Origin: Prevotellaceae bacterium MN60 | Lineage (GTDB): Bacteria > Bacteroidota > Bacteroidia > Bacteroidales > Bacteroidaceae | DNA: 64,000 nucleotides | Direction: 5' to 3' | Assembly: GCA_900199555.1 (NCBI GenBank) | Contig: FZQZ01000001.1 | Location: forward strand, 62,001-126,000 | Shown: piece by piece, positions 6,790 through 36,545 of the stretch | Position numbering within the stretch: position 1 is the stretch's first letter | Layout of the letters: each line of letters begins with the position of its first letter | Program-made: the position numbers and the translations under genes | Notes under the pieces: generated by a model | The model's input: only the letters and a program-made list of their open reading frames with translations | The model's database searches: none | What the model was told of the DNA's origin: nothing

Positions 6790-7368
6790 ATGCATAAGTA
6801 TTTATTATTTTTAGCCGCCATGCTGTTCTGCAGCTGTTCTGCAGACAACGAAGCGAAAGCAGAAACACCTACTATGAATAAAATTTATATCACTATCGAT
6901 GGACAAACGCAAAGCGCGACACTTGTGGACAATGATGCCACACGCGAGTTGGTTGCTGCACTGCAAGATGCGCCCATCACGGTCACGCTCAACGACAACA
7001 ATTTTGAGATTTGGGGGGCTTTGGGCAGATCACTGACAACGAAAAACGAGCAGATGACAGCCCAGCCCGGAGATGTCGTTCTCTATAGCGGACAATACAT
7101 ATGTATCTTCTATGGTTCTAACCCCTATAGCTATACACGTTTAGGACATATCGACGGACTGTCAGAAAGTGAACTTCGCACATTCCTGAAGGCTGGCCAA
7201 AACAACATCAGTGTTACGCTATCGCTTGCAGAGACTACAGGCATCAATACTGTTAAGAGTGACAAGTTAAAAGATAAAAGTTGCTATACTCTGCAAGGCA
7301 CATTAGCTCAGGCTGGACATAAAGGAATCATAATTCAAAACGGTAAAAAGATAATTAGAAAACAATGA
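6790..7368 (+). CDS. Lipoprotein with cyclophilin-like fold and C-terminal sorting-type tail
   Basis: 192 aa. A lipobox ends at Cys14 or Cys16 (LFCSC), so it should be anchored in the periplasm or outer membrane. The middle (about 30-145) matches the small 'cyclophilin-like fold' family often found next to flavodoxins ('IWGALGRSL', 'PGDVVLYSGQYICIFYG'). The last about 35 residues ('YTLQGTLAQAGHKGIIIQNG' then KK) resemble the beta-sandwich tails of Bacteroidetes secreted proteins. It starts two bases after the fusion gene and its stop overlaps the next start in ATGA. Function unknown. Confidence 0.6.
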   Translation: MHKYLLFLAAMLFCSCSADNEAKAETPTMNKIYITIDGQTQSATLVDNDATRELVAALQDAPITVTLNDNNFEIWGALGRSLTTKNEQMTAQPGDVVLYSGQYICIFYGSNPYSYTRLGHIDGLSESELRTFLKAGQNNISVTLSLAETTGINTVKSDKLKDKSCYTLQGTLAQAGHKGIIIQNGKKIIRKQ

Positions 7369-24055: not shown

Positions 24056-24619
24056 TTATGCTTCAGCAGGAGCCTCAGCAGCAGCCTCCTCAGCGGGAGC
24101 CTCAGCAGCAGCAGCTTCAGCAGCCTTTGCAGCCTCTTCCTCAGCCTTAGCGGCCTCGGCAGCAGCCTTCTTCTCAGCTACCTTCTTTGCAATCTCTTCG
24201 TTCAGCTTCTTTTCCTGAGCCAGTTCCTTAGCAGCAGCGTCCTTCTTAGCCTTAGCCTCAGCCTCAGCAATCTTGTTCAGACCATTCTGCTTGTCTGCCT
24301 TCCAGGCATCGAACTTCTTCTGTGCAGTAGCCTCATCGAATGCGCCCTTCTTAACGCCACCCTTCAGGTGCTTCATCAAGTAAACGCCCTCACGGCTGAG
24401 GATGTTGCGAACGGTGTCTGTAGGCTGTGCACCAGTCTCGACCCAGTAAAGTGCACGCTCGAAATTCAAATCTACTGTGGCAGGATTGGTGTTTGGGTTG
24501 TAGGTACCAATCTTCTCAGTAAACTTACCATCACGTGGTGCTCTTGCGTCAGCGATAACGATACGATAGAAAGCATAGCTCTTGCGACCGCCGCGCTGCA
24601 ATCTGATTTTTGTTGCCAT
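24056..24619 (-). CDS. rpsP: 30S ribosomal protein S16 with long Ala/Glu tail
   Basis: 187 aa. The first about 85 residues are a standard S16 ('[20 protein letters not shown]', 'GTYNPNTNP', '[12 protein letters not shown]'), a small-subunit protein needed for 30S assembly. The rest is a lysine/alanine-rich helical stretch ending in a run of A, E and P ('[16 protein letters not shown]'). Such extensions are common in Bacteroidetes; their job is unclear. Own promoter with a leader of about 60 bases. Confidence 0.95.
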
Positions 24620-36004: not shown

Positions 36005-36029
36005 CCCTGTCCTCTTGCAACAAAACCAA

Positions 36030-36063
36030 ATGATGCGCCCCGATTGGAGCGCATCATTTTTTT
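36030..36063 (+). terminator. Rho-independent terminator of the C1 peptidase gene
   Basis: ATGATGCGC (36030-36038) pairs with GCGCATCAT (36049-36057), followed by seven Ts. Confidence 0.9.
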
Positions 36064-36090
36064 ATCATACGTGGCATATTCATTCCAAAT

Positions 36091-36398
36091 AGTTTGACGA
36101 CACTTTACGGATAGTTTGACGACATTATTCGAGGAGTTTGACGACACTTTACGGATAGTTTGACGGCATAATTCATGGAGAATTTACGCATAATTCTCGG
36201 AGTATTTACGCACAATTCTCTAACTAGCTACATTCAGCTCTGAATACAGCTATTTCGAGGTGCAATACAATAACTATTGAGGGGCGAAAGTAACTGATTG
36301 GGCGCTGAGTGTAGCTAGTTACGAGCTGAGTCAGGCTAATTCAGAGCAGGGGCAATCTGATACGATACGAGGACAGACTGATTCGATTGCCGAGACAG
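36091..36398. repeat. Degenerate tandem array, 14 units on a 22-base period
   Basis: Six units start exactly every 22 bases (36091, 36113, 36135, 36157, 36179, 36201). Units 1 and 3 are identical, 2 matches 1 at 16/22 and 5 matches 6 at 18/22. Each has an 11-base half AGTTTGACGAC-like and a second half ACTTTACGGAT-like or ATAATTCTCGG-like, and the halves resemble each other (ANTTTNACG). From 36223 eight further, weaker units share a gCTAxTTxCGAG core with CTA/CTG spaced 22, 24, 20, 21, 21, 21, 21 bases. Unit length is not a multiple of three, no long ORF covers it, and there are no spacers as in CRISPR. Confidence 0.7.
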
Positions 36399-36408
36399 AA
36401 AAAACACT

Positions 36409-36451
36409 ATTCACGCGTATTGCTCTATGAGATAATACGATACGCGTGAAT
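36409..36451. repeat. 12-base perfect inverted repeat with 19-base loop
   Basis: ATTCACGCGTAT (36409-36420) and ATACGCGTGAAT (36440-36451) pair perfectly. It directly follows the 22-base array. No U-tract, so it is more likely a protein site or an RNA hairpin than a terminator. Confidence 0.7.
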
Positions 36452-36545
36452 GTGAAGACTATTTTCAAGCAAAAACTTTCTGTAAGGCATTTCTTTATAT
36501 GATACGTACTAATAACTGATGACAACTATAGCTATCATTTGCCAA

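Follow-up and report, generated by a model that had tools for sequence, protein, structure and literature searches.

A 22-base tandem array on a dispersed mosaic element of Prevotellaceae bacterium MN60, and noncoding arrays of the same period with other words in its genus

The six-unit array at positions 36091 to 36222 of the window (the whole stretch of 64,000 nucleotides of the Prevotellaceae bacterium MN60 genome analyzed here) is the 22-base array module of a composite, noncoding mosaic element that is dispersed through the genome and of which positions 36066 to 36475 are a shortened copy. In a sample of 40 species, arrays with a period of exactly 22 bases, mostly built from other words, were the commonest noncoding tandem arrays of the genus. 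The genus meant here is the database-assigned one, which we infer to be Prevotella. We put at roughly 0.5 the probability that such arrays are phased protein-binding sites, two helical turns apart, carried on non-autonomous mosaic elements.

The array in the window and the element around it

On the + strand, module G consists of six contiguous 22-base units with starts at 36091, 36113, 36135, 36157, 36179, and 36201, four of type 1 followed by two of type 2. This agrees with the initial annotation of this DNA, which had reported six starts spaced by 22 bases and the identity of units 1 and 3. Over 36091-36222, identity at lag 22 amounts to 0.70, the maximum of the window at that stretch size (mean, 0.246; SD, 0.045), and none of 2,000 first-order shuffles reached this signal, so that the refuting outcome named at the outset, an equally strong signal in shuffled sequence, did not occur. 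Tandem Repeats Finder detected the array independently. No ORF of at least 100 amino acids overlaps it, and its units abut directly without CRISPR-like spacers, which supports the earlier view that it is neither coding nor a CRISPR. Identity at lag 11 is elevated as well (0.471; P = 0.017 for the first consensus unit of the module and 0.129 for the second).

The array had originally been described as comprising 14 units, with eight weaker ones carrying the 22-base spacing onward. Only the first six stand. Across 36223-36398 the best of the lags tested (8 to 49) is 21, with an identity of 0.471, and the value at lag 22 (0.318) was matched or exceeded by 130 of 2,000 shuffles. The lack of a 22-base continuation is explained by the folding of this part, which is a separate hairpin module: positions 36223-36350 fold better than shuffles, with z scores of -4.3 as RNA and -2.6 as DNA. 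The window copy and its left border are made up as follows.

36028..36059, + strand: terminator-like hairpin 3' of the peptidase C1 gene (stem listed by the scan, scored on the - strand)
36066..36085, + strand: probable remnant of one module B unit (CATACGTGGCATATTC), left edge of the element (by eye, against B copies)
36091..36222, + strand: module G, the six-unit array (lag test, Tandem Repeats Finder, census)
36223..36319, + strand: module H, one long imperfect hairpin of 97 nt (folding, dispersed copies)
36320..36398, + strand: tail of module H with a loose period near 21 (lag test, dispersed copies)
36399..36475, - strand: module A, terminal hairpin (folding, dispersed copies)

The window copy thus holds a trace of B, seen by eye and lying beyond the reach of the BLAST module annotation, followed by G, H, and A. 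Its only A hairpin (36399-36475) gave z scores of -4.1 to -5.1, depending on strand and parameters; at other loci, inverted copies of A close the element on both sides. The hairpin at 36028..36059 lies outside the element and is directly followed, by eye, by a T run on the + strand, and the scan for such hairpins returned one where 0.5 was expected. According to Pfam, the left neighbor is a peptidase C1 gene and the right neighbor a DUF3943 gene, of which the 3' end faces the element. The initial annotation had placed the array between a terminator and the end of an outer-membrane gene, and this location holds as regards a terminator-like hairpin on the left and a gene 3' end, that of DUF3943, on the right. 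Elsewhere in the window, positions 24061-24169 carry a GC-rich tandem repeat with periods of 12, 15, 21, and 27, all multiples of three, which probably represents a repetitive protein segment.

Dispersed copies and their turnover in MN60 and HUN156

The MN60 genome, a draft of 24 contigs, was compared with that of its sister, Prevotellaceae bacterium HUN156. Allowing up to 3 mismatches, the unit AGTTTGACGACACTTTACGG occurs 21 times in MN60 and its reversed pattern 0 times. A two-unit pattern of 34 bases yielded 61 matches in MN60 and 26 in HUN156, with reversed controls at 0 and no match in the other 198 of the 200 genus genomes searched. Likewise, all eight stretches from an exact-pattern search of a sequence collection came from HUN156, records very near MN60 possibly being left out there. 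For the block to the right of the array, 48 matches were found in MN60 and 22 in HUN156; the final 76 bases of this block often reappear in inverted form at a distance of several hundred bases. A further dispersed repeat, which consists of tandem GAACATTGAAGATT with units of 7/14 bases, was noticed at L124:3425-3485; besides the main match it occurs 39 times in MN60 and 48 times in HUN156, in both orientations.

Module A, the end hairpin, measures 76 bases. Outward-facing pairs of A ends were found at 17 of 20 loci, most of which had been chosen for paired hits, and the 17 elements between such ends, set by hand, span 636 to 1055 bp. The interior comprises four array modules (B, D, G, and H), the words of which differ as judged by eye, together with a small GC hairpin (F), an inverted-repeat module (E), and an AT-rich module (C). 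By eye, the favored order is A-B/C-D-E-F-G-H-A, with single modules absent or inverted at, for instance, L110, L111, L114, and L115. Over the MN60 and HUN156 copies, the best lag is 22 for D and G and 21 for B and H (22 copies in the case of H). The element shares with miniature inverted-repeat transposable elements (MITEs) its noncoding nature, its dispersal, and its inverted ends; an ORF call (104 to 196 amino acids) overlaps only 3 of 45 arrays.

In hairpin A, 3 of 18 pairs changed on both sides, the shuffle mean being 3.4. One pair is split into 18 AU and 18 UA, and the covariation score lay above all 500 shuffles, while RNAalifold indicated no covariation in this hairpin. Relatives of module E in three other genomes (L133, L134, and L135, from G094, G035, and G151) keep their inverted arms with a different arm sequence, namely CATCTAACC with GGTTAGATG, forms around TGTTACATG, and CACCTAACC with GGTTAGGTG; by eye, these differences look like compensatory change.

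A search of the MN60 genome for a Y1 transposase gave one match (29 bits; cutoff, 23) in an open frame of 328 amino acids. Since the 3,252-base locus around this gene contains no modules, the only similarity being a 12-base match to E (E value, 0.40), a Y1/RAYT mobilizer adjoining the modules is rejected. The 328-residue frame, with its Y1-type match and a long C-terminal part, is present in both genomes (L180 and L184), and a frame with a C-terminal part that appears similar by eye lies in L173, beside the HUN156 site equivalent to element L106.

Array grammar was read from a strict census of the fetched loci, which gave 45 arrays (30 from MN60, a lower bound for that genome, and 15 from HUN156). 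The motif is GTTTGACGRCA for type 1 units and ATTTACGCA for type 2 units. Both types occur in 29 arrays, type 1 coming first in every one of them, and 16 arrays contain type 1 only. Because of this constancy, the decay from left to right that had been read into the window array is better described as a fixed order of two unit types. A looser motif recovered 162 units in 51 arrays and broke the order in 1 of 29 mixed arrays. After anchor correction, 106 of 114 unit steps in the strict census equal 22 (81 printed as 22 and 25, from type 1 to type 2, printed as 23); two others measure 44 and 66, and the remaining six, of 63 to 85, contain other sequence. The arrays counted have 2 to 6 units. Columns 19 to 22 of the unit are the most variable, and T5, T16, C11, A12, and C18 are near invariant, although conservation in columns 1 to 12 is partly due to the search motif. 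At L108:1591-1660, and also in L157, the array ends like a terminator, with an inverted unit and a T run after two 22-base units.

As for gene setting, 18 of 45 arrays lie between tandem genes, 13 between convergent, and 11 between divergent genes, with 3 undetermined; in the tandem settings, 9 arrays run with the genes and 9 against them, so that there is no bias. These counts bear on the idea of a transcribed composite RNA, the hairpins of which end or protect transcripts while the array is a mere linker. Modules H and A do fold far better than shuffles, and the array of L108 has the terminator-like end just described. The array itself, however, folds no better than shuffles (+ strand; z, -0.2 as DNA and -0.6 as RNA), and a hairpin formed by the array is rejected on this ground; by module annotation, the array stands without any other module at L024, L027, and L149. 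Together with the absence of any bias toward gene ends or orientation, and of any Rfam match that reaches the gathering score for the window stretch, L104, L117, and L115, this makes an RNA element of this kind improbable. The best Rfam matches (E values, 0.19 and 0.28) lie far below the gathering score, and a known RNA family is rejected.

Comparison of equivalent sites in the two species revealed several outcomes. The full element L108 corresponds in HUN156 (L157) to a short outer-end scar only, within flanks that are 96 to 97% identical, which implies that the element was lost there or was never complete; in this pair, the sole one examined base by base, there is a scar and no clean target-site duplication. 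L115 is matched by a lone, diverged A hairpin (L172), and in the pairs L104/L150 and L009/L165 the two species have different mosaics in the corresponding gap. The pairs L117/L122 and L120/L123 are old shared copies. Among six orthologous loci, four have arrays on both sides, with equal unit numbers in three of these four. At the other two loci, the HUN156 side (L174 and L175) has no array of at least two units by the motif applied, only weaker matches.

L120 has three units and L123 four, within surroundings that are 96% identical, and L122 carries a variant common to two adjacent units that L117 lacks; the mosaic change between neighboring units proposed in the initial annotation thus receives some support. 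Pooled over the four orthologous array pairs, 17 substitutions fall in 287 columns versus 129 in 3,846 columns outside, and the arrays are no more conserved than their surroundings. Here the main rival of the binding-site reading comes into play. It holds that the arrays are selfish or neutral minisatellites with no host function, whose 22-base step is set by the copying machinery, either through slippage against a bound protein or through repeated copying of a short template. Whole-unit change amid nearly identical surroundings, divergence of the arrays at least as fast as that of their surroundings, and the lack of a preferred gene context all speak for this explanation; the single order held by the unit types speaks against it. 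We regard it as possible but doubtful.

HUN156 has no array at the site of the window copy, and the gene order differs. Its peptidase gene is closely followed by an opposite-strand gene (a hydrolase, by eye), the stretch after the peptidase gene matches MN60 about 77 kb away on the same contig, and the DUF3943 gene has its best HUN156 match on another contig, at 78% identity. In G013 and G007, too, homology stops at the peptidase stop codon. Since no modules occur in the HUN156 stretches at this site (L127 and L128) or in L143, on the other side of the synteny break, there is no sign of recombination between copies at this break. Of 40 flanks of MN60 compared with HUN156, 21 were matched: eight at 95 to 100% identity, eleven at 70 to 86%, and two short ones at 91 to 94%. 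This pattern looks as if stretches had recently been exchanged between the two genomes.

A recurrent period with changing words

A search with the whole element, in which two candidates per genome were scored, found partial module matches in 15 other genomes among the 200 of the genus. At 18 loci from 13 of those genomes, a lag-22 array exceeded the cut at four: G198 has a relative of the type 2 word, G180 a different word, and G167 and G035 a mutually alike pair. Around relatives of the peptidase gene (29 loci), lag 22 exceeded the cut at none, and lags 21 and 14 did so at one locus each.

To avoid selecting loci by module similarity, we sampled 40 genus genomes (species), each with a single stretch no longer than 20 kb (696 kb in total). 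The sample is not random, as the genomes have a completeness of at least 97 and the stretches are mostly the first bases of contig 1; six are shorter than 10 kb and one more is shorter than 20 kb. Two controls were used: 316 kb from other families of the order, in 20 stretches of 12 genomes, and 200 kb of Escherichia coli K-12. Genes were masked by a simple ORF caller, and noncoding DNA was scored as an array where 42 or more of 66 positions matched at some lag between 8 and 60. By this measure, the genus sample has 32 noncoding tandem arrays, and 21 of them, in 15 stretches, have a period of exactly 22. The second half of the sample was fetched after the first had been scored, and the two halves gave 11 of 17 arrays (7 stretches) and 10 of 15 (8 stretches), respectively. 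In the other families the count was 1 of 8 arrays, and E. coli had no arrays. The difference between 21 of 32 and 1 of 8 has a one-sided Fisher P value of about 0.01, calculated by hand and with arrays of the same stretch not being independent; some same-stretch arrays among the 21 share a word, and that of L222 is nearly an 11-base repeat.

In matched first-order nulls of the noncoding DNA, arrays numbered 0.0 to 0.1 per replicate in the genus sample and 0.7 in the other families; these nulls supersede a null on whole shuffled stretches, which gave 53 chance lags. The peak is not a product of the gene mask, since 22 of 46 arrays have lag 22 when the mask is omitted. At the strictest cut (50 of 66), arrays at 22 numbered 5 of 6 in the first half, 1 of 4 in the second, and 0 of 3 in the other families, the remaining second-half arrays having periods of 21, 41, and 44. 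In a threshold-free comparison, lag 22 was the strongest of lags 5 to 70 in each half of the genus sample, with robust z scores of 2.6 and 3.7. Its score was 1.0 in the other families, in which the leading lag is 21, and -0.6 in E. coli. In single genomes, lag 22 ranked first among lags 15 to 40 in only 6 of 18 and 5 of 18 stretches. The periods of three very regular arrays, in L251 (G076; 6866-6989 and 16070) and L253 (G079; 11332), are 44, 41, and 21 bases and likewise lie close to multiples of two turns of the helix. Chance or an assembly artifact, for which the draft state of MN60 might be cited, is already refuted by the shuffles of the window array, by the presence of copies in two independent genomes where controls gave 0, and by the repetition of the genus result in a second sample against so low a null.

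Whereas the period recurs, the words mostly do not. Only 4 of 317 word pairs from different loci, with the L264 word entered twice, are alike beyond a z of 3.5; the L261 word resembles module D and the L189 word module G. One word of G122 has 303 matches in that genome and 0 in 11 others, and all 25 of its local steps, at 12 loci, equal 22 (two steps being double-counted in overlapping loci). Another word has 26 matches in G024 and 1 in G117, its reversed control having 1 in G117 and 1 in G084.

Common features within the words were sought in 25 arrays of other species, a set that includes L189, L190, L198, and L201, which were chosen for module similarity and stand outside the 21 of 32. A common dyad within the 22-base words was found in only 2 of the 25. 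A common 11-base half (lag 11, P < 0.05) also occurred in 2 of 25, one of them a relative of the window word; 11 bases as the deeper period, as put forward in the initial annotation, finds some support in the window array but not in such arrays in general. The same figures bear on the proposal of a curved segment, in which AT tracts with an 11-base period bend the DNA intrinsically. The raised lag 11 of the window array would fit it, but the words extend from 0.27 to 0.73 in GC content and share no lag-11 pattern, which makes curvature as a general cause very unlikely. A core-plus-gap layout reached P < 0.05 in 3 to 5 of the 25 arrays, with four units each, and is a weak signal; a conserved core with a variable gap is visible where many units can be read, as in the MN60/HUN156 census and in G122.

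A step of 22 or 21 bases corresponds to two turns of the DNA helix. Helical phasing, suggested at the outset for the window array, has gained support as the most striking property of these arrays, the same 22-base period recurring across the genus with different words. According to the binding-site reading, each array would be a row of sites for a putative DNA-binding protein, and a step fixed at two helical turns would place all bound copies on one face of the DNA. The recognized word may drift along with the protein, which would confine words to one or a few species while leaving the geometry unconfined. The elements would spread and turn over as non-autonomous mosaics by insertion, loss, module exchange, and inversion, and unit number would change by whole units through slippage or recombination. 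In support of this reading, steps of 22 dominate although unit columns 19 to 22 are highly variable. Counting against it are the shortness of the arrays, the period of 21 in modules B and H, the lack of extra conservation in orthologous arrays, the few arrays with a core-gap layout, the missing array at the window site of HUN156, and the low second-half count at the strictest cut. A step set by the copying machinery, on the other hand, fits poorly with words that are common to many loci of a species and not created anew at each locus, and plain slippage gives no reason for a period of 21 to 22 across different word families.

Tentatively, these arrays may form a genus family in which the two-turn step is conserved and the word is replaced from species to species. 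If this is true, the chromosomes of many species of the genus are acted on by an array-reading protein that evolves fast, or else by a copying ruler of 22 nt; a system of either type was not found described in the literature searched. Intergenic repeats of bacteria are usually classed by sequence, whereas in this case many species have the period in common but not the sequence. The genus is large, with members in the gut, the rumen, and the mouth, and this pattern provides a natural experiment for learning whether the length of bacterial minisatellite repeats is fixed by a protein sensitive to helical phase or by copying in steps of constant length. Some of the fast change in the intergenic DNA of these genomes could also be explained by the elements, and their positions could mark where strains vary.

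Comparison with known repeat systems

The literature searched for such repeats in this group consisted of papers on Porphyromonas gingivalis, papers on repetitive extragenic palindromes (REPs), and unrelated ones; 22-base arrays in this genus were not found in it, most subscription papers lying outside its coverage. CRISPR arrays differ from those described here, in which units are contiguous and no unique spacers occur. Plasmid iterons are direct repeats of about 20 to 22 bp that share the two-turn spacing and are bound by a replication protein. The present arrays, in contrast, are chromosomal, dispersed, and present in many copies, and a Pfam scan of five neighboring proteins of the window element found no replication protein.

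The nearest described element that we found is the BrickBuilt MITE of P. gingivalis (PMC4596501). In the available excerpts of that report, BrickBuilt is a dispersed and always intergenic element of 84 to 991 nt in a Bacteroidales host, with 19 copies in one strain; it occurs in close relatives only and has a contiguous 23-nt tandem repeat between inverted ends, a variable unit number, predicted long hairpins, and both filled and empty sites (PMC4596501). The same excerpts mention tandem repeats of 41, 23, and 22 nt in strain W83 (PMC4596501). The present elements likewise are dispersed and intergenic, occur in close relatives, and carry an array inside inverted ends as well as long predicted hairpins, and they too vary in unit number and in whether a given site is filled. 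They differ from the BrickBuilt of these excerpts in their period (22 versus 23), in unit number (2 to 6 in the arrays counted here versus 1 to 22.8), and in having many exchangeable and invertible modules in place of a leader-repeat-tail structure (PMC4596501). Judged by reading, the ends also look different, with the 76-base hairpin module A here and 12-nt IS5-like ends (GAGACC...) in BrickBuilt. As excerpted, gains and losses in BrickBuilt arrays involve whole 23-nt units (PMC4596501), which favors the view that the copying machinery sets the step.

The accessible parts of reports on BIMEs and REPINs describe high-copy intergenic mosaics in both orientations, with protein-binding roles, in enterobacteria and pseudomonads (PMC2817692, PMC6006769). 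The present elements are similar in being high-copy, intergenic composites of several repeated motifs in both orientations. However, BIMEs as described there are built from REP palindromes with a REP-associated transposase (PMC2817692, PMC6006769), whereas the array here is not palindromic and the sole Y1-type gene of MN60 has no adjacent modules, unlike REP palindromes next to a RAYT gene. CGTC-tagged REPs are, in the part of their description at hand, short palindromic dispersed sequences seemingly without a dedicated transposase, with Bacteroidetes among their hosts and Neisseria copies in large mosaic intergenic regions (PMC3733652); those are palindromes of 20 to 40 bp, and the present arrays are direct repeats of 22 bases. 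Given the descriptions available to us, the present elements resemble both BrickBuilt and BIMEs, but because their period and modular make-up differ and their ends look different, we do not file them as members of either.
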